DNA from: Glycomyces sp. L485
GTDB lineage: Bacteria > Actinomycetota > Actinomycetes > Mycobacteriales > Micromonosporaceae
DNA length: 64,000 nucleotides
Assembly: GCF_022548875.1 (NCBI RefSeq)
Contig: NZ_JAKZEW010000001.1
Coordinates: 124,264-188,263, forward strand
Direction: 5' to 3'
Shown here piece after piece: positions 20,081 to 40,552 of this stretch. How positions within the stretch are numbered: the first letter of the stretch is position 1; each line of letters begins with the position of its first letter. The notes beneath the pieces are model-generated. The model worked only from the letters and a program-made list of their open reading frames with translations. It did no database searches and was not told the origin of the DNA. A program made the translations under genes and the position numbers.

Positions 20081-20743
20081 TCAGCCGAGGTAGCCCATTG
20101 CGGCGACGATCAGGGTCGAGCAGCAGACGACCAGGCCGAGCCGGTAGTTCCGTTCGAGGCGCTTCTCGTCGTCGGCGATGGCGGGGCGCCCGGCGACGCC
20201 GATGGTGAGCCAGGCGAGTCCGAACGTCAGCAGCGGAATGAACACGACGATGGCGATGAAGAGCAGTTGCGTGGCGATGCCGACGGTGACTTCCGCTCCG
20301 AACTGGTCGGTGGGGCTCAGGCCGTGCCAGATCCGCAGGACCGTGAACTGCACCAGCAGCGAGGCGAGGGCGAACAGGCCATAGAGGAGACCGTTGCGCT
20401 CGTCGGTGCGCCAGCGCGGGAGCCACGGTGGGCGGTAGGCCAGGAATCGCGCCTCCTCGAATTCCACCGCGGCCGTCCGCAAGTCGGCCTCGGCGGCGCC
20501 GATCTCGGTGGCCGCGTCCCCGCCGAGCGGCTGGGCGGTGGTGCGCGGAGGGGGGGCGACGCGGGCGGTTCCGGCGAGTTCGTCGACGGCGGCGCGCTGT
20601 GCGGTGGCCTGCTGGGCGAGTCTCTCGGCCCGCTGGCCGAGCGATTCGGTCCGGGAGGCGGCGAGGGTGGCGGCCTCGTCGGCGCTGCGGCGAGTCTCGT
20701 CGAGGCGGCGCAGCTGGGCGAGGTAGTCGTCGAACGCGCTCAC
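20081..20743 (-). CDS. Coiled-coil membrane protein coupled to the FtsK-like ATPase
   Basis: 220 residues from GTG 20743, with AAAGGA 8 nt upstream. The first 100 residues form a charged coiled coil (LAQLRRLDETRRSADEAATL and onward). Three membrane helices follow: LLYGLFALASLLVQFTVLRI, LLFIAIVVFIPLLTFGLAWL, and a C-terminal YRLGLVVCCSTLIVAAMGYL. Its start overlaps the stop of the FtsK-like gene by 4 bp (GTGA), so the two products are probably made in fixed ratio and interact. It could anchor the P-loop ATPase to the membrane, replacing the TM domain that classical FtsK carries itself. Family not recognised. Confidence 0.7.
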   Translation of the reverse strand: MSAFDDYLAQLRRLDETRRSADEAATLAASRTESLGQRAERLAQQATAQRAAVDELAGTARVAPPPRTTAQPLGGDAATEIGAAEADLRTAAVEFEEARFLAYRPPWLPRWRTDERNGLLYGLFALASLLVQFTVLRIWHGLSPTDQFGAEVTVGIATQLLFIAIVVFIPLLTFGLAWLTIGVAGRPAIADDEKRLERNYRLGLVVCCSTLIVAAMGYLG

Positions 20744-23118
20744 GCGTGTTCCTTTCTCGTGAAGGGCACGAGCAGCCGTCCCGAGCCTGTGTCGGCGTGG
20801 CGGTCGATGAGCAGGGCGCGTCCGGGGCGCGGGCTCCAGTGCTGGAACTGCTGTCCGAAGTGGCTGGATATCTCCGCTCCGGGGAGGTTGAGGACGAGCG
20901 AGCAGGCGATGTCCTCGCGTCCGGCGCTGCCGCCGATGTCGTCGAGGAAGCGTCGGTAGATCCGCCACCAGGCGAGCAGGTGGACGCCGCGGGCCGGTCC
21001 GGTGCGCAGCAGGTTGCGGAGTGCCTGCTGGCCCTTCATGTCGAGCGCGGCGGCTTCGAGTCCCCAGGCGAGGATCGTCGTGTCGTCGGGGACTTCGCCG
21101 AGCTTGGCCGCGAACTCCTGGGGTGAAATCCTATTGGATACATCCTGTGCAGTCGCGGTCCCGGTGTAGTCCACTGTCCACAACTGCCGGCTCGGCGGCG
21201 CGTGGAAGGCCAGGCTCTGCGCCGCAGCCTCCAAGACCTCCCCGCCGGCCGGGTCCGAGCCGAGGACCGCCAGGTGGCGTCCCGGCCGCTGATCGAGGTC
21301 GACGCCCGCGGCTTCGAGCCGCAGCGAGACCTCCCGGCCGAGCAGCACCCGCCCCGGCCTGCGCTCCTCCGGCAGCGTCTCGGTGAAGTGGACGGGCCGG
21401 TAGCCGTAGAACACGCACGGCGCCTCGTGCGTCGAGTGCGCGGCCCGCAGCTGCTCGCGCAGGCGCAGCATCACCTCCGCGTCGGTGTCGGGGAAGCGCG
21501 CCACCCGGTCGGCCCCGGCGGTGCCGCCCTCGGTGTTGACCACGACCTGCCCCAACGAGATCCTGGTCGCCGCGTCGTTGTTCGGCTCCAGGATCGTCCG
21601 CGCTCCCGGCAGTGCCACGCGCATCGGGAACTGCCCGAAGATCGAGTCCTTCTTCGCCCAGAGCGCCTCGATGCCCGAGATCGTCTGCGACGCCAGCACC
21701 AGGTGCACGCCGTACGACCGGCCTTTGCGCGCCAGGTTCTCCAGCAGCGCCACGGCCTCGGCGGCGACCTTGTCGTTCCCGGCCAGAAGCACCTGGAACT
21801 CGTCGGCCACGCACACGATCCGCGGATACGACTCGTGGCGCCGCAGCCCCGCGAACGAGGACACGCCGAAGCGCTTCATGACCGCCGACCGGTTCGTCAT
21901 CTCCTCGTTCAGGGCCCTGAGCACCGCCAGCCCGTACTCCCGGTCGGACTCGACGCCGACCGCGCGAGCGTGGGGAATGAAGGTGTCGTCGCGGTCGGTC
22001 GGAATGAACTCGGTGAAGGAGACGCCCTCCTTGAAGTCGAGCAGGAACAGCGCCAGGTCCGAAGGGGAGTAGCGCGAGGCCAGGCCGTAGAGCACGTCGA
22101 GCAGGAACACCGTCTTGCCGCCGCCGGTGCGCCCGCCGACGAGCCAGTGCGGCGTAGCGTCGTCGAAGCGCATCCGCACCTCTCCGGCGGCGTCGCGTCC
22201 GATGAGGATCTCCAGTCCGTCCGCGGGGTCCTGTGAGAGCGGCGCGTCGGGGATGAGGTCCTCGAACGTCAAGGTCGCCGCGGCCCTGGCCCGTTCGGCC
22301 AGCCGCGCGGCCTCCCCGGCCAGGAAGGTCGGGTCGGCGCCCGCGGGCCAGGCCACCGGTGCGGCCAGCCGCTCGTCGCGTGAGAACGGCGCCGCCGGCG
22401 GATTCGTGACCTCGACGTGGCCGTCGGCCTGGTGCAGCACCGTCGCCTGCGGCAGATCGGGGATCCCGGCTGCGAGCACGGTGACCCCGTGCGCGAGTCC
22501 CGAACGCGCCAACGCGTGGATCCGCTCGATGAGCGACTTCGGCGCCTCCCCAATGGAGGCGATCGCCAGCAGCAGTCGGTCGGTGCGGTGCCCGGCGATG
22601 CTTTCGGACACCTGGGTCTCGGCTGCGGCGATGACGTCGGCCGCGGCGCGCGCGTCGGTCGCGATCGCCTCGATGACGCCCGCGTCGGCCAGGGGGCGCA
22701 GCGGCGCGAACGTCGCGCCGAGCGTGGCGGTGTCGATGCCGGCGACTCGGACCTTGCCCGGGTCGTGGTGGGCGAGGGTGTGCAGGATCGCGCTCCTGAC
22801 CAGGGAGGCGACGCCGTCGACTCGGGCGTCGACGCTGGTCGCCAGGTGCCCGCGCTCGCCGAACGGCACTATCAGCGGGAGCTGCCGGCCCTCATGGAGG
22901 ATCACCTGCCCGGCGTGCAGCAGCTCGGCGTCGGTGCGCAGGTGCGCGGCGGATGCGGTGGCCGCGTCGGATATCCGACGTTCGGCCTCCAGCAGCGCCG
23001 GGTCCACCGGAGTCCGGAAGGCGGCCTCGCCCAACCGTCGGCGGGCCGCCGCGAGCCGGGCCGCGGCGATATCGCAGCCAGCGGCCGCTTTCGCCAGTGT
23101 GGAGCGGAAACCGGGCAC
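20740..23118 (-). CDS. FtsK/SpoIIIE-type P-loop ATPase without membrane domain
   Basis: 792 residues from GTG 23118, preceded by GAGGAGG at 5 nt. An N-terminal helical part leads into an alpha/beta domain (about 75-225), followed by the FtsK/HerA-type motor: Walker A HWLVGGRTGGGKTVF (about 324-338), Walker B RIVCVADEFQVLLAG (about 433-447), and a sensor-like VHLVLASQTISG. The C-terminal 250 residues form another P-loop-like fold without a clear Walker motif. It has no membrane helices and no DNA-reading gamma domain, unlike chromosome-segregating FtsK. It is also unlike EccC, which has three intact motors. It is divergent from the flotillin/ATPase unit and coupled to a membrane coiled-coil protein. 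A role in membrane-linked DNA or protein pumping is inferred. Confidence 0.85.
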   Translation of the reverse strand: MPGFRSTLAKAAAGCDIAAARLAAARRRLGEAAFRTPVDPALLEAERRISDAATASAAHLRTDAELLHAGQVILHEGRQLPLIVPFGERGHLATSVDARVDGVASLVRSAILHTLAHHDPGKVRVAGIDTATLGATFAPLRPLADAGVIEAIATDARAAADVIAAAETQVSESIAGHRTDRLLLAIASIGEAPKSLIERIHALARSGLAHGVTVLAAGIPDLPQATVLHQADGHVEVTNPPAAPFSRDERLAAPVAWPAGADPTFLAGEAARLAERARAAATLTFEDLIPDAPLSQDPADGLEILIGRDAAGEVRMRFDDATPHWLVGGRTGGGKTVFLLDVLYGLASRYSPSDLALFLLDFKEGVSFTEFIPTDRDDTFIPHARAVGVESDREYGLAVLRALNEEMTNRSAVMKRFGVSSFAGLRRHESYPRIVCVADEFQVLLAGNDKVAAEAVALLENLARKGRSYGVHLVLASQTISGIEALWAKKDSIFGQFPMRVALPGARTILEPNNDAATRISLGQVVVNTEGGTAGADRVARFPDTDAEVMLRLREQLRAAHSTHEAPCVFYGYRPVHFTETLPEERRPGRVLLGREVSLRLEAAGVDLDQRPGRHLAVLGSDPAGGEVLEAAAQSLAFHAPPSRQLWTVDYTGTATAQDVSNRISPQEFAAKLGEVPDDTTILAWGLEAAALDMKGQQALRNLLRTGPARGVHLLAWWRIYRRFLDDIGGSAGREDIACSLVLNLPGAEISSHFGQQFQHWSPRPGRALLIDRHADTGSGRLLVPFTRKEHA

Positions 23119-23325
23119 CGGACCTCCTCTTGGATCGCCCCCGGCCTCGGGGGGCTGTACAACCGGTCACAGGATAGTCCGTTCGGAGCAACCTTCCACC
23201 GCCCGCCCGCGTGCATTAACCTGAATGCAGACCCGAATCTTGTTGACCCTGACTGTGCCGCCCGCCCGTCGTACACCGTTCGCGCATGCGCCCGCGCGAA
23301 CGTGAGGACAAGGATCCGAAGACCC
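23119..23325. promoter_or_regulatory. Divergent promoter region between the FtsK-like and YqiJ-like genes
   Basis: 207 bp that must drive both arms of the FtsK/flotillin locus. A GAGGAGG ribosome site for the minus gene lies at its left edge. A TTGACC at about 23244 and an AT-richer GCATTAACCTGAATGCA patch near 23212-23229 are candidate promoter elements. That patch is partly palindromic (TGCATT...AATGCA). The shared region suggests co-regulation. Confidence 0.45.
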
Positions 23326-23985
23326 ATGAGCGAGTTCCTGACCATAGCCCTATCCTTTCCCCCGATCGTGTTCTCGTTCGGTCTCATCGTCGTGGTCCTG
23401 TACTGGATCACCGTCATCGTGGGCGCGCTCGACGTCGACATCGTCGATTTCGGCACCGATTCGGACGTCGAAGTGGAGGCGGGCGGATCGTTCTGGTCGG
23501 CGTTCGGTTTCGGAGCTGTGCCGTTCACTGTGGTGCTCTCCCTGTGGATCACCCTCGGTTGGATAGTGACGGTCCTCGGCACCACCTGGGTGCACAGTGC
23601 CGAAGAGATATTCATCCCCACCGCGGCCACGGGGACGGCCACGCTCGTCGCCGGAATCGGGGTCGGCATGCTGGGCGCCAAGCTCTTGTCCAGGCCGCTG
23701 TCGAAGATCTTCGCCGACGCCCCGGCCACTGCGCACCGCGACCTGATCGGAAAGGTCTGCGTGGTCAGGACGGGCACCGTGACCGTCGAGTCGGGTCAGG
23801 CCGAGATGACCGAAGAGGACGGCACGGTCCACCTCATCAACGTGCGCCGCTCGGCGCACGAGCCGGAGGGCATCGACGACGAGCACTTCTCACGTCATTC
23901 GAAACTGGTGATCTTCGACTACGATGAGGTCGCCAGGGTCTTCCTCGTCGTCCCGGTGGCGATGCCGCCGAGCCTCGAGATGTGA
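23326..23985 (+). CDS. YqiJ-like membrane protein with OB-fold (NfeD-type) domain
   Basis: 219 residues from ATG 23326. Three membrane helices lie at about 10-33 (PPIVFSFGLIVVVLYWITVI), 58-82 and 95-115. A C-terminal beta-rich domain follows (RDLIGKVCVVRTGTVTVESG to RVFLVVPVAM). Helices plus an NfeD/OB-fold domain directly upstream of a flotillin gene is the yqiJ-yqiK layout known from Escherichia coli. There the small partner helps place or cap the SPFH protein in membrane microdomains. Here the pair is followed by a giant AAA ATPase. Assignment comes from topology and gene order, not close sequence identity. Confidence 0.75.
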   Translation: MSEFLTIALSFPPIVFSFGLIVVVLYWITVIVGALDVDIVDFGTDSDVEVEAGGSFWSAFGFGAVPFTVVLSLWITLGWIVTVLGTTWVHSAEEIFIPTAATGTATLVAGIGVGMLGAKLLSRPLSKIFADAPATAHRDLIGKVCVVRTGTVTVESGQAEMTEEDGTVHLINVRRSAHEPEGIDDEHFSRHSKLVIFDYDEVARVFLVVPVAMPPSLEM

Positions 23986-24165
23986 GACCGCCGGCCTGCA
24001 GGCCACCCGCCCCCATCAGCTCGGGTGAGGGCACCCGGCGCCCTCCGCCCTGCCGAGCCCACCAGTCCGACCTCGAAAACGGTGAACCCCACCGATTGAC
24101 ATCGGCCAGTAGGGTTTGATCACGCCCGTACCCAGTCCCCCCTGAAGTCTCGTTAAGGAACCGAA

Positions 24166-26232
24166 ATGGAATCCCAATCGGCGTCGCTGCTGACCATTCT
24201 CGTGGTCGGGGCGATCATCTTCCTGGGCATACTGCTCATGATCGTCCGGCTCTACCGGAAGGTCGCTCCGGGGCAGGCCCTGGTCGTCACCAAGCTCCGC
24301 AACCGCAAGGTGTCCTTCACCTCGGCTCTGGTCCTCCCGATCATCCACAAGGCCGAGTACATGGACATCTCGGTCAAGACGATCGAGATCAACCGGGACG
24401 GCAAAGACGGCCTGATCTGCCAGGACAATATCCGCGCCGACATCTCCATCACGTTCTTCGTGCGCGTCAACGCCACCGCCGACGACGTCCGCAACGTCGC
24501 CAACTCGATCGGCACCAAGCGCGCCTCCGACCAGGACACGCTCCAGGAACTGTTCAACGCGAAGTTCTCCGAGGCGCTCAAGACCGTCGGCAAGCAGCTC
24601 GACTTCACGAGCCTGTACACCAACCGCGACGAGTTCCGCGACCGGATCATCCACGTCATCGGCACCGACCTCAACGGCTACAGCCTCGAAGACGCCGCCA
24701 TCGACTACCTCGAGCAGACCCCGATGTCCTCGCTCGACCCCCAGAACATCCTCGACGCCCAAGGCATCCGGAAGATCACGGAGCTGACCTCCCGCGAGTC
24801 GATCACGACCAACGAGCACCGGCGCCACGAGGAGAAGGAGATCAAGCGCCAGGACGTCGAGGCCCGCGAGGCAGTCCTGGAACTCGAGCGCCGCCAAGAA
24901 GAGGCCGAGATCCGCCAGCAGCGCGAGATCGAGACGCTGCGCGCCCGCGAGGCCGCCGAGGTCCAGAAGGTCCAGGCGGAGGAGCGGCTCAAGTCCGAGA
25001 CCGCGCGGATCCGGACCGAAGAGGCCACGGGCATCCAACACGAGAACCGCCTGCGCGAGATCGCCGTCGCCGAGAAGAACCGCGAGCGCGTCATCGCCGT
25101 CGAGACCGAGCGCATCGAGAAGGACCGCATCCTCGAAGTCGTCGGCCGCGAGCGCGAAGAGGAACTGGCGCGCATCGCCGCCAACAAGGAACTCGAAGCC
25201 GAGAAGCGCGACATCGCCGACGTCGTCCGCGAGCGCATCGCCGTGGAGAAGACCGTCGCCGAGCAGGAAGAGGGCATCAAGCGCCTGCGCGCCACCGAAG
25301 AGGCCGAGCGCGAGCGCCAGCAGGTCATCATCCGCGCCGAAGCCGAGGCGCAGGAGAACCTGGTCAAGGACATCAAGGCCGCCGAGGCCGCCGAGACCGC
25401 CTCGAAGTTCACCGCCCGCGAGCGCATCACCCTCGCCGAGGCCGCCCAGCAGGCCGCCGAGATGGAGGCACGCGCCAAGATCCGCCAAGCCGAGGGCGAG
25501 CAGGCGCTCGCCGCGGCCGAGGGCCTCGCCGAGGTGCAGATCCGCGAGGCCGACGCGACCGCGATCGAGAAGCAGGGCCTGGCCGAGGCCAAGGCCAAGG
25601 CCGCGCTCGCCGCAGCAGAGGCCGAGGCGACCGCTTCGCAGGGCAAGGCCCAGGCGCAGGCGACCAACGAGCAGGGCATGGCCGAAGCGGCCGTCATGCG
25701 CGAGAAGCTCATGAGCGAGTCCGCCGGCCTCACCGAGAAGGCCGAGGCGATGGACGCCCTCTCCGCCGCCTCCCAGGCGCACGAGGAGTACCGCCTCCGC
25801 CTCGACATGGAGAAGGAGCTGCGCGGCGCCGAGATCGAGGCCAGGCGCTCGATCGCCGAGCAGCAGGCGGCGGTCATCGCCGCCGGGCTCTCGAAGGCCG
25901 ACATCTCGCTTGTCGGCGGCGACACCCAGTTCTTCGACCGGGTCGTCGGCGCGATCGGCTACGGCAAGGCCGTCGACGGGTTCATGGAGCACTCCGAGTT
26001 GGCCTCCGGCCTCGCCGCCTCGTGGACGAACGGCTCTTCCTCGTTCTCCGAGGACCTCAAGAGCGTGCTGTCCGCGGTGGACACCGACGACGTCAGGAAC
26101 CTCACCGTCTCGGCCGCGCTGCTCAAGCTCATCCAGGGCGGCGGCGACCGCGACATGCTCAGCGGTCTGCTCGACAAGGCCAAGGAGCTCGGCGTCGCCG
26201 AGCGCCCCGCCGTCGAGATGACCGCCAACTAG
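24166..26232 (+). CDS. Flotillin-like SPFH-domain protein (YqiK type)
   Basis: 688 residues. One N-terminal membrane helix (LLTILVVGAIIFLGILLMIV, 5-25) is followed by the SPFH/band-7 domain (about 30-190), with YRKVAPGQALVVTK and INRDGKDGLICQDNIRADIS. Next come about 320 residues of almost uninterrupted Glu/Arg/Ala coiled coil ending in a flotillin-type Ala-Glu repeat region (EAKAKAALAAAEAEATASQG). The C-terminal domain includes DISLVGGDTQFFDRVVGAIG. Such proteins oligomerise into cage-like membrane scaffolds. It is gene 2 of the plus-strand unit, 84 bp before the large ATPase with a strong hairpin in the gap. It likely organises the ATPase at the membrane. Confidence 0.92.
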   Translation: MESQSASLLTILVVGAIIFLGILLMIVRLYRKVAPGQALVVTKLRNRKVSFTSALVLPIIHKAEYMDISVKTIEINRDGKDGLICQDNIRADISITFFVRVNATADDVRNVANSIGTKRASDQDTLQELFNAKFSEALKTVGKQLDFTSLYTNRDEFRDRIIHVIGTDLNGYSLEDAAIDYLEQTPMSSLDPQNILDAQGIRKITELTSRESITTNEHRRHEEKEIKRQDVEAREAVLELERRQEEAEIRQQREIETLRAREAAEVQKVQAEERLKSETARIRTEEATGIQHENRLREIAVAEKNRERVIAVETERIEKDRILEVVGREREEELARIAANKELEAEKRDIADVVRERIAVEKTVAEQEEGIKRLRATEEAERERQQVIIRAEAEAQENLVKDIKAAEAAETASKFTARERITLAEAAQQAAEMEARAKIRQAEGEQALAAAEGLAEVQIREADATAIEKQGLAEAKAKAALAAAEAEATASQGKAQAQATNEQGMAEAAVMREKLMSESAGLTEKAEAMDALSAASQAHEEYRLRLDMEKELRGAEIEARRSIAEQQAAVIAAGLSKADISLVGGDTQFFDRVVGAIGYGKAVDGFMEHSELASGLAASWTNGSSSFSEDLKSVLSAVDTDDVRNLTVSAALLKLIQGGGDRDMLSGLLDKAKELGVAERPAVEMTAN

Positions 26233-26246
26233 GACACCGACCCGCC

Positions 26247-26279
26247 GACCGGGATCCCATGGGACATGGGATCCCGGTC
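26247..26279 (+). repeat. Perfect 15-bp hairpin between flotillin and ATPase genes
   Basis: Arms 26247-26261 and 26265-26279 are fully complementary (GACCGGGATCCCATG and its reverse complement) around a 3-nt loop. There is no T-tract. The hairpin lies 14 nt after the flotillin stop and 37 nt before the ATPase start, so it could attenuate transcription or protect the 3' end of the upstream message. Confidence 0.7.
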
Positions 26280-26316
26280 CGGTCGCCGCCTTCCGCTCGT
26301 TCACTGGGGAAACGTC

Positions 26317-29300
26317 ATGGCCGAAGAGACCGCCACCGCCGCCACCGCGCTCGACGCCGGCACCTACGAAGTCCTGTCCAAGCGCCTCGCCGACTTCGCC
26401 ACCGAGCTGACAGACCGGGCCGAGACGCTCAACGCCGCCCGCACCGACGCGTTCGGCGGCACCGAGCTGAGCCTGCTGGGCACCACCCGCATCCGCACCG
26501 CCAACAACTGCGTCCCCCGCGACATGGTGCAGGTCGGCGGGCACCTCCTCTTCGGCTACAACGTCCACATGGGCCTCAAATCGCACACCGATGTGGGCGA
26601 GGTCTTCACCGTCCACGACTTCCTGCGCCAGGACGGCAAGTTCTCGTTCGGCGACGTCGACGCCCCGGGGCACGTCCTCGACGACGCCCGCTTCATCGCC
26701 GACTTCACCGAGATGTACCGCTACTACCGCTCGACCGAGCTGCTCCAGGTGCGCCAGGTCGAGACCCGGCTGCTCGCGGTCTTCCGCATCGGCGAGAACC
26801 TCGCCGACCAGCGCGTCTTGCGCTGGCAGCTGCGCCCCGACGGCTCCGCGGAGTACATGGACGCCCGCGGCGAGGCCGACAACACCTGGCCTGAGCCGCA
26901 TGACTTCGAGTGGACCGATACCACCCGCGACCAGCACGTGACCGGCCGCCACCCGCACGTGTCCATCGAGGACGAGATCTTCGTCGAGTGCCTGGGCGGC
27001 ACACTCACGATCAAGGTCGAGGACAACACCGATTCGGGCGAGGGCGTCTTCTCCGAGCCGGTCGCCGAGCGCCTTCAGTCCCTCGCCGACGCCTCGATCG
27101 CATACGCCCGGGTCGGGCCGCTCATCCTGTTGAAGATCCTGCCCTACAACGAGACCCAGACCCGCTACCTCATCTACAACACCCGCACCGGCGACGTCCG
27201 GCGCGCCGACGCCATCGGCGCCGCCTGCCGGCGCCTGCCCGAGGACCACGGCGTCATCTTCCCCGGCGGCTACTACCTCAACGAGGGCAAGCTCAAGACC
27301 TTCGACCACGACACGGCCGACCTGCGCTTCAAAAGAGTCATCCGCTCCCCCAACGGCGAGGACGTCCTCTTCGTCTTCTACCACGAGGCCGAGGGCCGCT
27401 CGCTGCTGCTGCCCTACAACGTCATCCGCAAGGAAGTCGCGGCGCCGATGAGCGTCCACGGCTACTCGATCTTCGAGGACGGCACCCTCGTCGCCTTCCG
27501 CTTCACCGGCGAGGAAGCCACCCGCGTCCACCCGATGCAGGTGTGGGCCACGCCGTTCGTCTCCGAGGCGCACGCCGCCGCCAACGAGTCGGGCGACACC
27601 CCGATCCACCGCATCGGCAACGCCGAGGCCGTCCGCGCCGTCTCCGACGCCCTCACCGTGGCGCGCATGGTCCGCGAGATGCAGCCCGGACAGGCCGTGT
27701 TCGAGGCCCTCATCGCCGCGGCCACCCGCTGCCTCGACGACTACCCGTGGCTCGGCGACGAGGGCCTGTTCGGCCTCGACGCGACCCTGCGCAGCGTCCG
27801 CGACACCGCCGAGTCCGTCCTCGACGAGTACGCCACCGTCGCCGAGTTGACCGCCGAGGCGGGCAAGGCCCTGGCGCAGGCCGACGCCGACACGCTCAAG
27901 CTCCTGCGCCGCGCCCGAGGCGAGGCCCCGAAGTCCGCCGAGGACTGGGTCACCCTCCTCACCGATCTGCGTGGCGCCCAAGGGCACCTGGTGACCCTGC
28001 GCGACGTCCGCTACATCGACACGGATCGCATCGGCGAGATCGAGGCCGACCTGACCGGGTGCCTCGACCAGACCGGCCGCCGCGCCGTCGCCTTCCTCGA
28101 ACTCGAGGACTCCTTCGCCCCGTACTTCGCCGAGATCGGGGAACTGGAGCACAAAGCCGAGCGCATCGAGACCGTCGCCGAATCGACGCCCCTGGTCGAG
28201 GACCTCGACGCCCGCCAGCACGGCCTTGAGACCCTCACCGAGGTCGTCTCCACACTGGAGATCGGCGACGCCACGGTCCGCACCGCGATCCTCGGGCGCG
28301 TCTCCGAGGTCCTGGCCGCCGTCAACCGCACCCGCGCGGCCCTCGCCGCCCGCCGCCGGGAGCTGTCGGTCGGCGAGGGCCGCGCGGAGTTCGCCGCCGA
28401 GTACGCCCTCCTCGGCCAGGCCGTGACCGCCGCGCTCGCCGCCGCCGACACGCCCTCCGCCTGCGACGAGCAGCTCGGCCGGCTGCTGCTCACCGTCGAG
28501 AACCTCGAGACCCGCTTCGCCGACTTCGACGACTTCCTCACCCAGCTCGCCGACAAGCGCACCGACGTCTACGAGGCGTTCTCCTCGCGCAAGCAGAACC
28601 TGCTCGACGAGGCCGCCCGCCGCGCCGAGACCCTCGCGGCCTCGGCCGACCGCATCCTCGAAGCGGTCGCCCGCCGCAGCGCCTCGCTGTCCTCACTGGA
28701 CGAGGTCAACACGTACTTCGCGACCGACCCGATGGTCGAGCGTCTGCGGCGCGTCGTCGCCGAACTGCGCGATCTCGACGACACCGTCCGCGCCGAGGAG
28801 ATCGAGGGCCGCATCCAGGCCGCACGCTCAGAGGCCGGCCGCGCCCTCCAGGACCAGATCGACCTGTTCGACGGCGACGCGATCCGCTTCGGCGAGCACC
28901 GCATCCCGGTCAACACCCAGCCGCTCGACCTCACCCTCGTCCCCTCCGGCGGTCAGCTCGCGTTCTCCCTCACCGGTACCGACTACCGCCAGATCGTCGA
29001 CGACCCGGCCTTCGCCGACACCAAGCCCTACTGGAGCCAGTTCCTGGCCTCGGAGAACCCCGAGGTCTACCGCGCCGAGCACCTCGCCGCCTCTCTGCTG
29101 GCCGAGCACGGATCCGCGAAGCTCCTCGCCGAGGACCTGCCGCGGTTCGTGTCGGCCGCCGCGGCCGAACGCTACGACGAGGGCTACGAGCGGGGCGTAC
29201 ACGACGCCGACGCCGCCGCGATCCTCGCCGAAGTCCTGCGCCTTCACGCCGCCGCCGGGAACCTCCGCTACCGGGCCGCCGAGCGCGCCGCCGCCCAGCT

Positions 29301-31209
29301 GTACTGGGGCCACGGCGCCCCGAAGGAGCTGCAGGACGCCTGGAGCGCCCAGGCCCGCTCCCTCCACCGCGTCCGCGAGACCTTCGGCAGGACCGACGCC
29401 CTCGACCGCCTCGCCTCCGAAGCAGCCGACCGCCTCGGCGCCTGGCTCGCCGAATCCGGTGTGGCCCTGGAGATCGACTCGCCTCTCGCCGGCGAGTACC
29501 TCGTCGAGGAGCTCGCCGTATCAACCGACGGCTTCGCTTCCTCCGCCCGGGCACGCGACCTCGTCGCCGCCTTCGAACGCCACATCGGCCCGGGCGCCAA
29601 GCAGGCCTTCGACGACGACCTGCGCGCCATCGAGGCAGAGCCGGCCTCCCAGTGGGCGCTCGCCGCCGCCTGGGTCGAGTCCTATCTGCAAGGCGCCGAC
29701 GCTGAGCGCTTCGACATCGCCGACCTGCCCGAGGCCCTCGCGCTCATCCTCGCCGGCGTCGACGTCTACGAGGTCACCGCCGAACTCACCACCGAGGTCA
29801 CCGGGCTGCTTGGCACCCACGGCCGCGTCGAGAACCGCGTCCTGGCCATCCGCCTGGACGAGTTCCTCGCCCGCACCGGGCACTTCCGCCGCGTCACCGT
29901 CCCCGGCTACCGCGCCTACCAGTCCCGGCGCGGCGAGATCGTCGAGTCGCACCGCCGGAATCTGCGCGTCGACGAGTTCAAGCCGAAGGTCATGTCGGGC
30001 TTCGTGCGCAACCAGCTCATCGACGAGGTCTACCTGCCGCTCATCGGTTCCAACCTCGCCAAGCAGATCGGCGCGGGAACCGGCGACGCCCGCCGCACCG
30101 ACCAGTCGGGCATGCTCATGCTCATCTCCCCGCCCGGCTACGGAAAGACGACGCTCATGGAGTACGTCGCCGACCGGCTCGGGATGCTCCTGGTCAAGGT
30201 CAACGGGCCCTCGCTCGGCCACGAGACCGTCTCGGTCGACCCGGGCGACGCGCCGAACGCGACCGCCCGCCAAGAGGTCGAGAAGATCAACTTCGCGCTC
30301 GAATGCGGCAACAACGTCCTGCTGTACCTCGACGACATCCAGCACACCAACCCCGAGCTGCTGCAGAAGTTCATCTCGCTGTGCGACGCCCAGCGCAAGA
30401 TGGAAGGCGTGTGGAACGGCCGCACCCGCACCTACGACCTGCGCGGGAAGCGGTTCGCCGTCTGCATGGCCGGCAACCCGTACACCGAGGCGGGCCAGCG
30501 CTTCCGCATCCCGGACATGCTCGCCAACCGCGCCGACGTGTGGAACCTCGGCGACGTCCTCTCCGGACGCGATGAGGTCTTCGCCCAGTCATACATCGAG
30601 AACGCGCTCACCTCGAACGCCGTGCTCGCCCCGTTGGCCGGGCGCGACCGCGCCGACGTGCAGGTGCTCATCCGTCTCGCCGCAGAGGATCCGACCGCGA
30701 ACCCCGACAGCCTGCGGCATGCCTACTCCGCCGGCGAGCTCGACCAGATCCTCTCGGTCCTGCGCAAGCTCATCCACGTCCAGCAGACCGTGCTGCGCAA
30801 CAACCTCGCGTACATCGCCTCGGCCGCCACGGACAACGCCGCCCGCACCGAGCCGCCGTTCCTGCTCCAGGGCTCCTACCGGAACATGAACCGGCTCACC
30901 GAAAGGGTGGTTCCGGTCATGAACGACGACGAGCTCGAAGCGGTCATCGACGACCACTACGCCGGCGAGGCGCAGACGCTCGCCTCGGGCGCGGAGGCGA
31001 ACCTCCTCAAACTCGCCGAACTCCGGGGACGTCTGACCGAAGAGCAGGCGGCTCGTTGGGAGGCGGTCAAGGAGGCGTTCCGCCGCGAGCAGACCCTCGG
31101 CGGCGGGGACGACGATCCTATGTCGAGAGCGGTCGGGGCGATCACCATGCTCTCCGATCGCGTCGGCGGCATCGAAACGGCCCTGAACCGCCACGCGCCG
31201 AGGATCTGA
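26317..31209 (+). CDS. Giant AAA ATPase, 'DNA-repair ATPase' (DUF3686-type) family
   Basis: 1630 residues from ATG 26317, preceded by GGGGAAA. An N-terminal mixed domain (about 1-420) contains TRIRTANNCVPRDMVQVGGH and YLIYNTRTGDVRRADAIGAA. Long helical/coiled regions of about 800 residues follow. A C-terminal AAA+ domain has Walker A ISPPGYGKTTLMEY near 1270-1280, Walker B VLLYLDDIQHTNPELLQ, sensor-1 FAVCMAGNPYTEAGQRF and a late Arg-containing RNMNRLTERVV. The GNPYT sensor resembles MoxR/dynein-like AAA clades. The family is annotated as DNA-repair ATPase and frequently follows a flotillin gene; its biochemistry is not established. Here flotillin, a YqiJ-like partner and an FtsK-like motor are all adjacent. 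Confidence 0.88.
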   Translation: MAEETATAATALDAGTYEVLSKRLADFATELTDRAETLNAARTDAFGGTELSLLGTTRIRTANNCVPRDMVQVGGHLLFGYNVHMGLKSHTDVGEVFTVHDFLRQDGKFSFGDVDAPGHVLDDARFIADFTEMYRYYRSTELLQVRQVETRLLAVFRIGENLADQRVLRWQLRPDGSAEYMDARGEADNTWPEPHDFEWTDTTRDQHVTGRHPHVSIEDEIFVECLGGTLTIKVEDNTDSGEGVFSEPVAERLQSLADASIAYARVGPLILLKILPYNETQTRYLIYNTRTGDVRRADAIGAACRRLPEDHGVIFPGGYYLNEGKLKTFDHDTADLRFKRVIRSPNGEDVLFVFYHEAEGRSLLLPYNVIRKEVAAPMSVHGYSIFEDGTLVAFRFTGEEATRVHPMQVWATPFVSEAHAAANESGDTPIHRIGNAEAVRAVSDALTVARMVREMQPGQAVFEALIAAATRCLDDYPWLGDEGLFGLDATLRSVRDTAESVLDEYATVAELTAEAGKALAQADADTLKLLRRARGEAPKSAEDWVTLLTDLRGAQGHLVTLRDVRYIDTDRIGEIEADLTGCLDQTGRRAVAFLELEDSFAPYFAEIGELEHKAERIETVAESTPLVEDLDARQHGLETLTEVVSTLEIGDATVRTAILGRVSEVLAAVNRTRAALAARRRELSVGEGRAEFAAEYALLGQAVTAALAAADTPSACDEQLGRLLLTVENLETRFADFDDFLTQLADKRTDVYEAFSSRKQNLLDEAARRAETLAASADRILEAVARRSASLSSLDEVNTYFATDPMVERLRRVVAELRDLDDTVRAEEIEGRIQAARSEAGRALQDQIDLFDGDAIRFGEHRIPVNTQPLDLTLVPSGGQLAFSLTGTDYRQIVDDPAFADTKPYWSQFLASENPEVYRAEHLAASLLAEHGSAKLLAEDLPRFVSAAAAERYDEGYERGVHDADAAAILAEVLRLHAAAGNLRYRAAERAAAQLYWGHGAPKELQDAWSAQARSLHRVRETFGRTDALDRLASEAADRLGAWLAESGVALEIDSPLAGEYLVEELAVSTDGFASSARARDLVAAFERHIGPGAKQAFDDDLRAIEAEPASQWALAAAWVESYLQGADAERFDIADLPEALALILAGVDVYEVTAELTTEVTGLLGTHGRVENRVLAIRLDEFLARTGHFRRVTVPGYRAYQSRRGEIVESHRRNLRVDEFKPKVMSGFVRNQLIDEVYLPLIGSNLAKQIGAGTGDARRTDQSGMLMLISPPGYGKTTLMEYVADRLGMLLVKVNGPSLGHETVSVDPGDAPNATARQEVEKINFALECGNNVLLYLDDIQHTNPELLQKFISLCDAQRKMEGVWNGRTRTYDLRGKRFAVCMAGNPYTEAGQRFRIPDMLANRADVWNLGDVLSGRDEVFAQSYIENALTSNAVLAPLAGRDRADVQVLIRLAAEDPTANPDSLRHAYSAGELDQILSVLRKLIHVQQTVLRNNLAYIASAATDNAARTEPPFLLQGSYRNMNRLTERVVPVMNDDELEAVIDDHYAGEAQTLASGAEANLLKLAELRGRLTEEQAARWEAVKEAFRREQTLGGGDDDPMSRAVGAITMLSDRVGGIETALNRHAPRI

Positions 31210-31215
31210 CCGGTA

Positions 31216-31250
31216 ATCATGCAGTTCAACATAATGTCGGACTGCATGAT
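31216..31250 (+). repeat. 10-bp inverted repeat directly after the ATPase gene
   Basis: ATCATGCAGT (31216-31225) and ACTGCATGAT (31241-31250) are perfect reverse complements 15 nt apart, starting 7 nt after the ATPase stop. It may be a terminator without a T-tract or an operator for the downstream BRCT gene. The rest of 31251-31516 shows no gene; it is poorer in GC than its surroundings. Confidence 0.5.
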
Positions 31251-31516
31251 CCGCTTTCATTTCCACTTCATCGAGGCCGGGCGGACTCTGAACCGCACGA
31301 GTGGCGAACCGCTGCAGTTCTTATTCTCACGTACCGGCTTCTGCTCGGCTCCGCGATTACGAAGAGATCGACGAGCGTTTGCGGCTTGTAGTCCCCGCTG
31401 ACGGCTCCACCTAATAGCGTGGCGATCGAGGGCTGTCGAAGCTGCCGGTACGATCAGCTGGTAAAGCTATCCGTTGTGCCCTCAAGCTTGTAAACCATCG
31501 AATAAGGGAGGTCCCC

Positions 31517-32251
31517 GTGCCGACGAAGACGGGAGCGAAGATCCGGATCATCGTCTTGGGCACTGGCCCAGACGCCGAAGAGGCCCGCGAGATCGCCGCG
31601 GCAGATGCAGATGTCGCGATCGCCGCCAAGTTCACGAAGACGGTGACGCATCTGGTCATCGATGACACGGTGAAGTCGTCCGAAGCTCGTGTGAAGAAGG
31701 CCGAGGAGTCCGGCGTGCCCGTGCTCAAGCTCGACGACCTGAAGGAACTCCTCGTCGCGGACGAGGCTCCCGAGGCCGCCGACGAGCCCGAGCCGGCCGA
31801 AGAGGCGGCTCCCGAGCCCGTCGCGGAAGCGGAGCCCGAGCCTGAACCGGAGCCGGTACCCGCGGCCGAGGCCGAGCCGGAGCCTACGCCTGTCGAGGAG
31901 CCCGTCGCCGAAGCCGAGCCCGAGTCTGAGGCCAAGTCCGAGCCTGTCGCCGAAGTCGAAGTCGAAGTCGAAGCCAAGTCCGAACCTGTCGCCGAAGCCG
32001 AAGCCGAAGCCGAAGCCGAAGCCGAGCCCGAGGCCAAGACCGAGCCCGTAGCCGAAGCCGAGCCCGAGCCGACCGTCCCGTCCCAGGCCGAAGCGCCGAG
32101 GGCCGAGAGCGAGCCCGAGATCGATGAGATCGAGAAGCCCGCGGAGAAGGCCGAGGAGATCAAGGCCGACGAGGAGACCGCCACTTCGCCGAAGCCGGGA
32201 CTGGTGGCCAAACTCAAGTCCATCTTCAACCTGACCGGCGCCCGCAAGTAG
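31517..32251 (+). CDS. BRCT-domain protein with Glu/Pro/Ala-rich tail
   Basis: 244 residues from GTG 31517 with a strong AAGGGAGG ribosome site. Residues 1-80 resemble a BRCT domain: KIRIIVLGTGPDAEEAREIA, then VTHLVIDDTVKSSEARVKKA and SGVPVLKLDDLKELL, the usual alternation with a final Leu-Leu helix. About 130 residues of Glu-Pro-Ala-Val-Lys low complexity follow, built from near-perfect EP(V/E)AEAE units. The protein ends in a basic helix KPGLVAKLKSIFNLTGARK that could contact membrane or nucleic acid. BRCT domains bind phosphopeptides or DNA ends. It may be functionally tied to the upstream ATPase, though a 307-bp gap separates them. A hairpin terminator follows. Confidence 0.8.
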   Translation: MPTKTGAKIRIIVLGTGPDAEEAREIAAADADVAIAAKFTKTVTHLVIDDTVKSSEARVKKAEESGVPVLKLDDLKELLVADEAPEAADEPEPAEEAAPEPVAEAEPEPEPEPVPAAEAEPEPTPVEEPVAEAEPESEAKSEPVAEVEVEVEAKSEPVAEAEAEAEAEAEPEAKTEPVAEAEPEPTVPSQAEAPRAESEPEIDEIEKPAEKAEEIKADEETATSPKPGLVAKLKSIFNLTGARK

Positions 32252-32408: not shown

Positions 32409-35012
32409 GTGGACGTCAATCGTTTGACCACCAAGAGCCGCGAAGTCATCTCCCAAGCCGCCCGCTCCGCCGCCGCCCACGGCAACGCGACCGTCGACCC
32501 GTGGCACCTGCTGGACGCGCTGATCACCGTCGACGGCTCCACGGCCCCGGGCCTGCTTCAGCTCGTCGGCGTCACGCCCGGCACCGTCTCGGCCGAGACA
32601 GAGCGCCGCCTCGACGACATGCCCTCCGCCTCCGGTCCCTCCGTGTCCGAGCCGTCGATGGGCCGCGAGTCGCTGCGCGCGATCAACGCCGCCGACAAGA
32701 TCGCCACCGACTACGGAGACGAGTACGTCTCCACCGAGCACATCCTCACCGGCCTCGTCCAGGCCGGCGGCGAGGTCGGCACCTACCTGTCCGACCAGGG
32801 CGCCACCGAGAAGAAGCTGATCGGCGCCTTCCCGACTCTGCGGGGCGGCGACCGCAAGATCTCCAGCGCCGACCCCGAGCAGGGCTACAAGGCCCTCCAG
32901 AAGTACGGCGTCGACCTCACCGAGAACGCCCGATCTGGCAAAGTGGACCCGGTCATCGGGCGCGACACCGAGATCCGGCGCGTCATCCAGGTACTGTCCC
33001 GCCGCACCAAGAACAACCCGGTCCTCATCGGCGAGCCCGGCGTCGGAAAGACCGCCATCGTCGAGGGACTCGCCCAGCGCATCGTCGCCGGGGACGTCCC
33101 CGAGTCGCTGCGCGACCGGAGGGTCATCCTCCTCGATCTCGCCAGCATGATCGCCGGCGCCCAGTACCGCGGCCAGTTCGAGGAGCGGTTCAAGTCCGTC
33201 CTCGAAGAGATCAAGTCCTCCGACGGCCAGATCATCCCGTTCATGGACGAGCTCCACACCATGGTCGGCGCCGGTAAGTCCGAGGGCTCGATGGACGCCG
33301 GGAACATGCTCAAGCCGGCGCTCGCCCGCGGCGAGCTTCACATGATCGGCGCGACCACGCTCAACGAATACCGCGAGCACATCGAGAAGGACGCGGCCCT
33401 GGAACGCCGCTTCCAGCAGGTGTACGTCGGCGAGCCGTCTATCGAGGACACCGTCGCGATCCTGCGCGGCCTCAAGGAGCGCTACGAGGTCCACCACGGC
33501 GTGCGCATCACCGACTCCGCGCTGGTGGCCGCCTCGCAGCTCTCGGCGCGGTACATCCCCGACCGGTTCCTGCCCGACAAGGCCATCGACCTGGTCGACG
33601 AGGCCGCCAGCCGCCTGCGCATCGAGATCGACTCGCGGCCCGAGGCGATCGACGAGGTCGAGCGGGCCGTCCGCCGTCTGGAGATCGAGGAGACCGCGCT
33701 CCAGAACGAGACCGACGACCCGGCCTCGGCCGAGCGGCTCTCGGCGCTCCAGCGCGAACTCGCCGACGCGCGCGAGCGCCTCTCGGCACTGTCGCGCCAA
33801 TGGGAGTCCGAGAAGGGGCGCATCTCGAAGGTCTCCGACCTCAAGGAGCAGCTCGACGACCTTCGCACCCAGGCCGAACGCGCCGAACGCGAATACGACC
33901 TGGAGAAGGCCGCGCAACTGCGCTACGGCAAGATCCCCGAGCTCGAACAGGCGCTGACGGCCGCCGAGGCCGAACTGGAGCACACCGACCAGCCTGCGGC
34001 CCAGGCCCCGATGCTCAAGGAGGAGATCGACGCCGAGGAGATCGCCGAGGTCATCTCGGCCTGGACCGGCATCCCCGCCGGGCGACTCCAGGAGTCGGAG
34101 AGCCACAAGCTGCTCAACGCCGAGAGCGCCCTCGCCGAACGTGTCGTCGGCCAGACCGAGGCCGTCACCGTCGTCGCCGACGCGCTTCGCCGCGCCCGCG
34201 CGGGCTTGTCGGACCCGAACCGGCCCACCGGCTCGTTCGTCTTCGCCGGTCCGACCGGCGTCGGCAAGACCGAGCTGGCGAAGGCCCTCGCGGGGTTCAT
34301 GTTCGACGACGACCGGGCGATGATCCGCATCGACATGGGCGAGTACACCGAGCAGCACTCGGTGGCGCGACTCATCGGCGCCCCGCCCGGCTACGTCGGC
34401 TACGAGGAGGGCGGCCAGCTCACCGAACCGGTCCGCCGCCGCCCGTACTCCGTCGTGCTCCTCGACGAGGTCGAGAAGGCCCACACCAGGGTCTTCGACA
34501 CGCTGCTCCAGGTGCTGGACGACGGGCGACTCACCGACGGCCAGGGCCGCACGGTCGACTTCCGCAACGTCATCCTCATCATGACCTCCAACCTCGGGTC
34601 CCAGTCGCTGACGGACCCGACCCTGGAGGACGAGGCGAAGCGCGAATCGGTGCTGGGGGCGATCCGGGGCCACTTCAAGCCGGAGTTCCTCAACCGGCTC
34701 GACGACATCGTCATCTTCCACGCCCTCGAACACGACGACCTCAAGTCGATCGTGGACGTGCAGTTGCGCCAGCTCCAGAAGCGCATGGACTCCCGCAGAC
34801 TCAAGCTCGCGGTCAACGACTCGGCCAAGTCCTGGCTCGCCGACCGCGGCTTCGACCCGGTGTACGGGGCCCGTCCGCTCCGCCGCCTGATCCAGTCCTC
34901 CGTCGGCGACCCTCTCTCCCGGGAGCTCCTGGAAGGCAAGATCATCGACGGCGACACCGTCAAGGTCGGCACCGCCGACCTGGGCGACAAGCTCATCGTC
35001 TCCAGGGGGTAG
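32409..35012 (+). CDS. clpB: ATP-dependent disaggregase ClpB
   Basis: 867 residues, full length, from GTG 32409 with AGGAAGG upstream. The Clp N-terminal repeat domain (1-145) begins [23 protein letters not shown]1 has Walker [10 protein letters not shown] (208-216). Its Walker B reads [11 protein letters not shown], where most ClpBs have ILFIDELHT; the catalytic DE is kept. The middle coiled-coil arm (about 400-525) that binds DnaK is present. NBD2 has Walker [10 protein letters not shown] at 614-622 and [11 protein letters not shown]. It rescues aggregated proteins with DnaK. The HAIR-like element upstream predicts HspR control and heat induction. Confidence 0.96.
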
Positions 35013-38299: not shown

Positions 38300-40546
38300 T
38301 CACAAGGGATGCGGTCGCGGCAACGCGATTGCCTGGACCCACCCTTGCCCAGCGTCGATGTCGATGAGCTTGTCGTCGCCGTTCAAGTCGCGCACGACGA
38401 TCCGTCCGTTCCGGTCGCCGGTGAGGATCAGCGGAGCGTCGCCTCTGGTGTCGATCTCCAAAGCATAGACGGGGTCCGAATGGTCGTTGAAGACCTTGCG
38501 TTCGATGCCGTCCTCCAAGTCCCACACGCGGACCGAGCCGTCGTCTCCGGACGAGACGGCCAGCAGACCCTCATCGGTCTCGACCAGCTCGATTACCCGC
38601 ACTCTTGCGGTGTGGCCGGTGAGCGGATCGCCGACGACCTCGCCGCTCGCCAGGTCCCGGACCAACAGCGCGGCGTCGTCATCGGCGCTGATCACCACCT
38701 GATTCCCCTCGAGGACGCCGGTGGTCATGCCGCGGATGGTCGAGTCGGTGTCGACGGCTCGGGCGGCCTCGTCTCCCGTGTTCGGGTCCCACACCCGCAT
38801 GAACCCGTCATTGCCACCGGTGACCACCACGGGGCGACCGTCGAGCTCTGAGACGGCGATGGACCGCACGTCGGCGGTGTGGCCCTCGAACTTCGAGACG
38901 GGTTCGCCGCTGGCCAGGTCCCACACCCTCGCCAGATCGTCGTTGCCGGCCGACACGATCACGGGCCTGCCGTCGAGGTCGAACACGGCGATAGACCCGA
39001 TCGAGTCCGTGTGCGCCTCCTCGATGGTTCTGGGCTCGGCCGGCTCGTCGAGGTCCCAGATTCGGATCGTGTGGTCCTGGCCGCTGGAGACGAGTACGCC
39101 ACTACCGTCGAGTTCCGCGAAGGCGGCGGCGAAGACGTAGCCGTCGTGCGCCGGGATCGGATCGCCGACCGCCTCCCCTTCAAGGTTCCACGTCCGCAAA
39201 GTGCCGTCGGTGCCGGTCGAGACGAACCTTGAGGCCCATTCATCCATAGTGTTCGCTTGTCCGGGAGGCTCCTCGCCCGGACGTTCACCGTCCGGCCACC
39301 AGACGTACGCTGCCGCCACCATGCCCAGCACCAGCGCGACCGTGGCGAGTGCCGTGAGGGCTCGGCGATGTCGGGGAGCCGGACCGGATGGTGGCGTCGG
39401 AGTCGGCGCCGGTGGAAGCCGCTGCGTCACCGCCGTCGGAGGCGACACAGGCGAAACCGCGGGCGGTGGCGGTTCCCCGGCTATGAGCAGGCAGCCTTCC
39501 GCGACTACGAGCTCTGGTTGTTCCAACACCGTGGGCGGTGTGCCGAGCTCCCGATGCAGCATCGTCGCCACCAGCGGCATCCGCGAGGCCCCGCCGACGA
39601 GGAACACCCCCGCCGTCCGTTCCGGAGTCAGACGCGCCTCCCTGATCGCACCGCCGGTCACCTTGACCGCCCGCGCCAGCAGCGGTCCCACGACCTGCTC
39701 GAGTTCGCCTCGTGTCAGATGCGCGTTCGTGTCGAGCAGCGGCACGAGCAGGTCGGCCCGCTGCTGGCGCGACAGCTGCTCCTTGGCCACCCGCACCTCC
39801 TCGTAGAGCGTCCTGCGGTGGCGGCGGTCCGACGACGTGGTCGGGTCGACCAGGCGAGGCCAGTCCTCCTTTTCCGACATCTGCCGGCCCAGGTATTCGA
39901 CCAGCGCCGCGTCGAGGTCGAGCCCGCCCAGATCGTCCAGACCGTCCACCGCGAGGACATCGAAGCCCCGCGGGCTTCGCTGCACGACGCTCGCGTCGAA
40001 CGTGCCCGCCCCGAAGTCGTGGATCACGACGGCCGAACCGGTCGGCACCGCGTGTTCGAGCGCGGTCGTGAAGTACGCGGCCGCCGCCACCGGTTCGGTT
40101 TCCACGGCGGTGACCCGAAGACCGGCAGCGCCGGCGGCGTCGATCAGCAGCTGTCGCCTCGCCGGGCCCCAGGTTGCGGGGACGGTCAACGCCACCTGGT
40201 CGAGTCGGCCCACCACCTGCAGCGCCTCCTCGCGGACGCGCGCCAGCACCGCCGAGAACAGATCGACCACCGTATATTCCCGCCGCCCGAGCAGCGTGTA
40301 CTCATCGGCGATGCGGCGCTTGGGGTTCGGTTCGAGACACTCCGGGCGGAGCACACCCGCCCGCAGGGCGTCTCGCCCGGTGACGAGTCGGCCGTCTTCC
40401 TCGGCGAACACTGCCGACGGGAGTAGTGGCGATCCGTCGAACAGCAGTGGTCGGGTGCGGCCGCCCCTGCCGTGTACCGCGACCGTGTGGGAGGTCCCGA
40501 AATCGACGCCGAGAGCGATCGGGCCGGATGAGGAGGGGGAATCCAT
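38300..40546 (-). CDS. Hsp70-like ATPase fused through a TM helix to a WD40 propeller
   Basis: 748 residues from ATG 40546 (TAACTT lies 6 nt upstream, so probably leaderless; a GTG two codons earlier is possible). Residues 1-355 are an Hsp70-type actin fold: GVDFGTSHTVAVHGRGGR phosphate-1 loop, VIHDFGAGTFDASVV phosphate-2, and FLVGGASRMPLVATML adenosine motif. A Pro-rich linker leads to one membrane helix (ALTALATVALVLGMVAAAYV, about 397-417). About seven WD40 blades follow, each with an (I/V)R(I/V)WDL-type end such as DHTIRIWDLDEP and DGSVRVWDLEDG. There is no peptide-binding domain. The ATPase would be cytosolic and the propeller outside, suggesting signalling or cell-wall assembly across the membrane rather than chaperoning. 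Confidence 0.85.
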   Translation of the reverse strand: MDSPSSSGPIALGVDFGTSHTVAVHGRGGRTRPLLFDGSPLLPSAVFAEEDGRLVTGRDALRAGVLRPECLEPNPKRRIADEYTLLGRREYTVVDLFSAVLARVREEALQVVGRLDQVALTVPATWGPARRQLLIDAAGAAGLRVTAVETEPVAAAAYFTTALEHAVPTGSAVVIHDFGAGTFDASVVQRSPRGFDVLAVDGLDDLGGLDLDAALVEYLGRQMSEKEDWPRLVDPTTSSDRRHRRTLYEEVRVAKEQLSRQQRADLLVPLLDTNAHLTRGELEQVVGPLLARAVKVTGGAIREARLTPERTAGVFLVGGASRMPLVATMLHRELGTPPTVLEQPELVVAEGCLLIAGEPPPPAVSPVSPPTAVTQRLPPAPTPTPPSGPAPRHRRALTALATVALVLGMVAAAYVWWPDGERPGEEPPGQANTMDEWASRFVSTGTDGTLRTWNLEGEAVGDPIPAHDGYVFAAAFAELDGSGVLVSSGQDHTIRIWDLDEPAEPRTIEEAHTDSIGSIAVFDLDGRPVIVSAGNDDLARVWDLASGEPVSKFEGHTADVRSIAVSELDGRPVVVTGGNDGFMRVWDPNTGDEAARAVDTDSTIRGMTTGVLEGNQVVISADDDAALLVRDLASGEVVGDPLTGHTARVRVIELVETDEGLLAVSSGDDGSVRVWDLEDGIERKVFNDHSDPVYALEIDTRGDAPLILTGDRNGRIVVRDLNGDDKLIDIDAGQGWVQAIALPRPHPL

Positions 40547-40552
40547 AATCAC

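Follow-up and report, generated by a model that had tools for sequence, protein, structure and literature searches.

The window, a 64,000-nucleotide stretch of a 4.4-Mb draft genome of the genus Glycomyces, carries a divergent locus of six genes: a motor ATPase and its membrane partner on one side and, on the other, a YqiJ-like gene, an SPFH (flotillin-type) gene, a gene for a giant AAA+ ATPase and a BRCT-like gene. A first-pass annotation of this DNA had placed the six genes correctly, and its description of an FtsK-like ATPase without a transmembrane (TM) segment, coupled over 4 bp to the next gene and divergent from genes for an SPFH protein and a 1630-residue AAA protein, was borne out; the motor and partner genes overlap by the 4 bp GTGA. 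It had gone on to propose that both arms form a single membrane-anchored machine acting on DNA. Our comparisons favour instead, with a probability of roughly 0.65, two independent conserved modules lying side by side, made neighbours by rearrangement, and not one DNA-handling machine. The features are listed below by their positions in the window.

20081..20743, minus strand: the partner, a coiled-coil membrane protein with three TM stretches, 220 amino acids
20740..23118, minus strand: the motor, an ATPase of EccC/FtsK type, 792 amino acids, GTG start
23119..23325, no strand: intergenic region from which the two modules diverge, 207 bp
23326..23985, plus strand: YqiJ-like membrane protein of NfeD type, 219 amino acids, predicted to have three long helices and a C-terminal OB fold
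24166..26232, plus strand: SPFH/flotillin-type protein, 688 amino acids (Band_7, 4.9e-7)
26317..31209, plus strand: DUF3686–DUF7902–AAA+ ATPase, 1630 amino acids (domains from Pfam)
31517..32251, plus strand: BRCT-like protein with an acidic repeat tail, 244 amino acids (sub-threshold in Pfam)
32409..35012, plus strand: ClpB, a conserved flank past the BRCT-like gene, outside the system

Adjacency and co-occurrence of the two modules

Both modules are held by 17 of the 19 Glycomyces genomes searched for the motor (G000–G018) and are adjacent and divergent in all 17, although in G014 only the SPFH, YqiJ and motor genes are contiguous, DUF3686 being on the next contig. This constancy speaks for a single machine, but the flanks of the locus are about equally conserved within the genus (of 10 genomes checked, all keep the clpB side and all but G017 the motor side), so that adjacency within Glycomyces is uninformative. 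It should be noted that G012 lacks the motor orthologue and the YqiJ, SPFH, DUF3686 and BRCT-like genes alike; as the whole block is missing, this was taken as loss or an assembly gap and not as evidence of co-loss. Three further Glycomyces genomes (G144–G146), outside the set searched for the motor, have the YqiJ, SPFH and BRCT-like genes.

Outside the genus the two modules were not found side by side. Of 80 named DUF3686 loci, 71 extend 5 kb or more upstream; the motor is present at one of these 71, which belongs to Glycomyces. The named collection includes contigs of Glycomyces luteolus and G. paridis. The FtsK-like pair is thus rarely beside the flotillin–ATPase unit, an outcome that the first-pass annotation had itself named as refuting its single machine. 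Neither motor nor partner was detected by tblastn (1e-5) in any of the 21 DUF3686 loci fetched from outside Glycomyces. Among 65 genomes from outside the genus that have DUF3686, the motor is on the same contig in 20 and on other contigs in 24, and for 21 there is no motor place among the matches listed. In all 20 same-contig cases the two genes are about 0.1 Mb or more apart (at least 101 kb by the listed coordinates), with distances that treat chromosomes as linear; in G127, listed at 5.8 Mb, another motor place lies about 0.1 Mb away across the record start. Spacings of about 100–130 kb recur in several genera (G142, G135, G084, G031, G034 and G030), perhaps reflecting an old shared chromosomal neighbourhood.

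Co-occurrence gives no significant link either. Among the 45 genomes with DUF3686, 42 have the motor, as do 64 of the 76 without it (Fisher p = 0.17; 121 genomes, uncorrected for phylogeny). Of nine genomes from outside the genus whose motor orthologue is close (E below 1e-200), five have DUF3686, compared with 33 of the 104 others (p = 0.16, likewise uncorrected). Genes in the fetched loci were called with a simple GC-based script, and as this missed some (for example YqiJ in G002) the neighbour counts were redone by tblastn. In the open-access literature found, as far as its text was available, no linkage of flotillin and FtsK genes is described.

The distribution of the junction can be followed on a tree of the motor, in which G043 branches outside a group of G042 and Glycomyces (support 100/100 and 97/96). 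In G043 the motor pair is far from the flotillin cassette, and the BRCT-like gene is 7.6 kb from DUF3686. In the sister genome G042 a YqiJ-like gene (41% identity) diverges from the pair across about 0.29 kb; neither SPFH nor DUF3686 has a match in that genome, and the BRCT-like gene lies at a distance of 82 kb. In the genomes compared here the full junction is confined to Glycomyces, with a partial one (motor pair and YqiJ) in G042, and with G043 apart this pattern would fit a single joining event in the ancestor of G042 and Glycomyces; loss in G043 is the alternative. Glycomyces G002 has neither SPFH nor DUF3686 and retains an open YqiJ-like gene divergent from the motor pair, followed after about 0.2 kb by the BRCT-like gene and about 8 kb further by clpB.

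The divergent region itself is 196–554 bp long in the 10 Glycomyces genomes compared and 4.7 kb in G009, where genes for an EspC-like and a YbaB-domain protein are inserted between motor and YqiJ (L034, 5003–7547). A shared operator in this region was considered and rejected: 13 intergenic rows (in which L003/L039 and L005/L033 are the same genomes twice) give short conserved blocks, none of them convincingly common to G042.

The flotillin cassette and the BRCT-like gene

The YqiJ, SPFH and AAA+ genes are a conserved unit, as the first-pass annotation had it. SPFH adjoins DUF3686 in 78 of the 80 named loci, the remaining two being contig ends; YqiJ and SPFH lie upstream of DUF3686 in 20 of the 21 loci fetched from outside Glycomyces; and presence of SPFH coincided with presence of DUF3686 in 14 of 14 chosen genomes. 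A cassette of YqiJ/YuaF, band-7/flotillin and AAA+ genes has already been described (mSystems 2024, PMC11237479), and the window has the same three genes. In the available part of that paper the AAA+ protein is given a coiled coil and a beta-propeller, and abbreviated operons are reported to occur widely among bacteria and archaea. The window differs in that the proteins scanned show no PspA or CesT/Tir match, and a word search of the paper's accessible text (PMC11237479) gave no mention of FtsK, BRCT or Glycomyces. DUF3686 was not found by name in the open-access literature searched.

The AAA+ protein matches DUF3686 (2.4e-199), DUF7902 (4.7e-28) and AAA (1.2e-5) in Pfam, with DUF3686 N-terminal and AAA+ C-terminal, and its Walker motifs PPGYGKTT and LYxDDI are invariant in seven members. 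In G343 and G335 the DUF3686 genes carry one in-frame stop each, possibly through decay or sequencing error. Identification of the first gene as YqiJ-like, made in the first pass, is not visible by sequence: the window protein has neither a Pfam match nor a PDB profile match, one of 10 family members matches YqiJ in Pfam (at 0.014), and YqiJ-like proteins from proteobacteria and from metagenome-assembled genomes have no YqiJ match there. It is supported by the predicted model, which has three TM helices and an NfeD-type OB fold and matches the NfeD OB domains 3cp0 and 3wwv, YuaF and the QmcA–YbbJ complex. Sequence searches of PDB with the DUF3686 profile, SPFH and the YqiJ profile returned nothing at the thresholds used. 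The QmcA–YbbJ complex reportedly contains a different SPFH protein and has no AAA+ partner. The match of our model to this SPFH–NfeD complex (PDB 8z5g) is at low Z.

For the BRCT protein announced in the first pass, the matches across the family are weak: eight of eight members match PTCB-BRCT and seven of eight BRCT (best 1.1e-4). The window protein scores below the Pfam cut-offs, and the family profile recovered from PDB weak rows of unrelated proteins, all at E 0.13 or worse; the protein does match PDC-S48 (4.2e-9). The gene occurs at two of the 80 named DUF3686 loci, both of them Glycomyces, and is retained in G002 and G042, which are without DUF3686; as it persists there it is not tied to DUF3686. 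In all 10 Glycomyces genomes checked for gene order, clpB follows the BRCT-like gene after a gap of about 0.1 to 8 kb. We judge the BRCT-like gene to be a neighbour, conserved in the genus, that stands between DUF3686 and clpB and belongs to neither module.

The motor ATPase and its membrane partner

The label FtsK/SpoIIIE holds for the motor at the level of Pfam (FtsK_SpoIIIE, E = 1e-25), and a motor domain of FtsK type is present. Within NCBIfam, however, EccCa (7.9e-24) is preferred to FtsK (1.5e-8), albeit below the equivalog cut-offs (84.4 against 509.15 bits for EccCa and 59.6 against 346.55 for EccCb). All 19 family members match EccCa as against nine that match FtsK, and the family profile finds EccC in PDB at 1.6e-34 and FtsK at 1.5e-11. 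The predicted structure aligns with T. curvata EccC over residues 59–790 (668 positions) and comprises three RecA-like domains, of which the middle one alone has an intact Walker A (residues 329–336) and Walker B (D439–E440) and the C-terminal one matches EssC D3. In sequence and domain layout the motor is thus closer to the EccC/EssC ATPases than to FtsK, which has a weaker sequence match and from which the motor also differs by the extra RecA-like domains on both sides; the DNA-moving role proposed in the first pass is to that extent disfavoured. Like EccC and EssC, the motor has several tandem RecA-like domains, and EccC is both its best curated family and its best PDB profile. It differs from them in lacking the two TM helices of the EccC/EssC ATPase chain, in having a separate membrane partner and in keeping the Walker motifs intact in one RecA domain; EssC is described with domains D0–D3 in the available text of PMC10765036, and the motor has one fewer. 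No hydrophobic segment of the motor reached the TM threshold (maximum window 1.18), the FtsK gamma and N-terminal 4TM domains are absent from its Pfam matches up to E 0.1, and none of the six locus genes matches EccB, EccD, EccE or WXG100 in Pfam or NCBIfam.

The partner has three predicted TM stretches, all within residues 117–220, and no Pfam match. Of 29 motor loci searched with a partner profile, 24 have a homologue immediately 3′ of the motor gene; 14 of the 15 sequences behind the profile come from these same 29 loci. The five without one are L032, L037 and L038, which have divergent motors, L044, and L058, which is at a contig edge. With the window partner alone as query, tblastn detected a partner at 12 of the 20 loci L041–L060. 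The C-terminal hydrophobic region is conserved across the fifteen partners. The idea that the coiled-coil protein replaces the missing FtsK anchor is thus sound as regards a conserved partner of a TM-less motor, and given that conservation an anchoring role is plausible; the partner may well hold the motor at the membrane. No description of the pair was found in the open-access literature, as far as its text was available.

The motor family is common, being present in 106 of 121 genomes of the family sample (at E 1e-30) and in 113 of 298 of the order sample (at E 1e-40). The window genome has two more paralogues, C112 with the same type of partner and C110 with other small neighbours, and the stretches fetched around these two contain no flotillin or YqiJ genes. 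A family of helical proteins of 86–98 amino acids lies near the motor in other genera and at one paralogue of the window genome (L052, L054, L055, L047, L048 and L032); as the two members scanned gave no convincing Pfam match, the label WXG100 was not given. At three of these loci (L052, L054 and L055) the surroundings of the motor, its partner and an 86-residue helical protein also include an M23 peptidase, a large membrane protein and a VirB4-like ATPase (AAA_10; Pfam on L055), a grouping that resembles the Streptomyces cmd cluster. CmdB of the latter is described as VirB4-like in the available text of PMC2782261.

Elsewhere in the window, a small EspC-like protein is encoded at 788–1117 on the minus strand (PF10824, 1.3e-6), about 20 kb from the motor locus, and a 750-residue protein at 38300–40552 (minus strand) combines an HSP70 region (1.3e-37) with WD40 beta-propeller repeats. 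The segment 58000–64000 has a lower G+C (0.625–0.645) and contains a tRNA-Ser gene (58068) and, at 60509–61756, a gene of AAA_14/DUF4143 type; it is possibly an integrated element.

Alternative readings and what the locus would mean

If the two modules are independent, what is known of the protein families suggests as most likely that the NfeD and SPFH proteins would assemble a membrane platform or cage, at which the AAA+ protein, with its DUF3686 N-terminus, would spend ATP on remodelling or extracting a membrane-associated protein. The motor would be a soluble EccC/EssC-like ATPase held at the membrane by its separate partner, that is, a split version of the one-chain EccC, and the pair would most likely pump or gate a polypeptide. 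Weighing against this for the motor is that its single motor domain, in the predicted model, fits FtsK in fold at least as well as EccC. A DNA role deserves serious consideration for the motor pair, albeit as an unlikely alternative: the pair could be a septum-targeted DNA translocase, unrelated to the flotillin cassette, resembling SffA–SmeA of Streptomyces, in which a small membrane protein encoded next door (SmeA) targets the weakly FtsK-like SffA to sporulation septa (PMC4255298, in the part available). The likeness, drawn from that description, is of an FtsK-like protein adjoining a small membrane protein. The motor family, however, matches EccC better than FtsK, and SffA and SmeA are reported, in the accessible text of the same paper (PMC4255298), to be absent outside streptomycetes and two named relatives. 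The same fold match could be invoked for both ATPases sitting on a flotillin platform and moving or surveying DNA for repair, segregation or defence, as could matches of the motor to PADLOC models (mad8, 7.8e-17; SspH, 3.2e-16; HerA, weaker). These matches are probably cross-matches among FtsK–HerA domains, none of the six genes was recognised as a defence partner, and the constant chromosomal position throughout the genus is unlike that of a mobile defence island. Together with the restriction of the adjacency to one lineage, the non-significant co-occurrence, the lack of an FtsK gamma domain among the Pfam matches and a BRCT-like gene that outlasts DUF3686, this makes the single DNA-handling machine the least probable of the readings considered.

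Other readings turn on the YqiJ-like protein. It might be common to both modules, serving as a membrane partner of the motor pair with the flotillin cassette as an optional extension, since in G002 and G042, without SPFH and DUF3686, the YqiJ gene is still open and still diverges from the pair; flotillin FloA, moreover, supports assembly of type VII secretion in Staphylococcus aureus (PMC5718613, in the text available). These are, however, two cases from related lineages with a single junction in common. Searches of the fetched stretch detected no YqiJ at 19 of the 20 motor loci L041–L060 (the exception, L042, belongs to G042, and L058 is at a contig edge) or at five further paralogue or distant motor loci. 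YqiJ may simply have outlived its partners, and in G009 the 4.7-kb insertion separates it from the motor. We regard a shared NfeD protein as improbable. A narrower version, in which the split EccC-like motor took over the NfeD subunit of the cassette in the Glycomyces–G042 lineage and the flotillin platform helps to assemble a minimal secretion-type exporter, has at best a slim chance, as two related cases are weak evidence and are set against the 19 of 20 loci without YqiJ.

Two independent modules remain the preferred reading, and the locus would then illustrate that a striking line-up of genes can be two conserved modules joined by rearrangement. It also counsels caution with labels, both that of 'DNA-repair ATPase' for the flotillin-linked AAA+ protein and that of 'FtsK' for an EccC-like motor, and the motor–partner pair offers a simple target for learning what the smallest EccC-type system can do.

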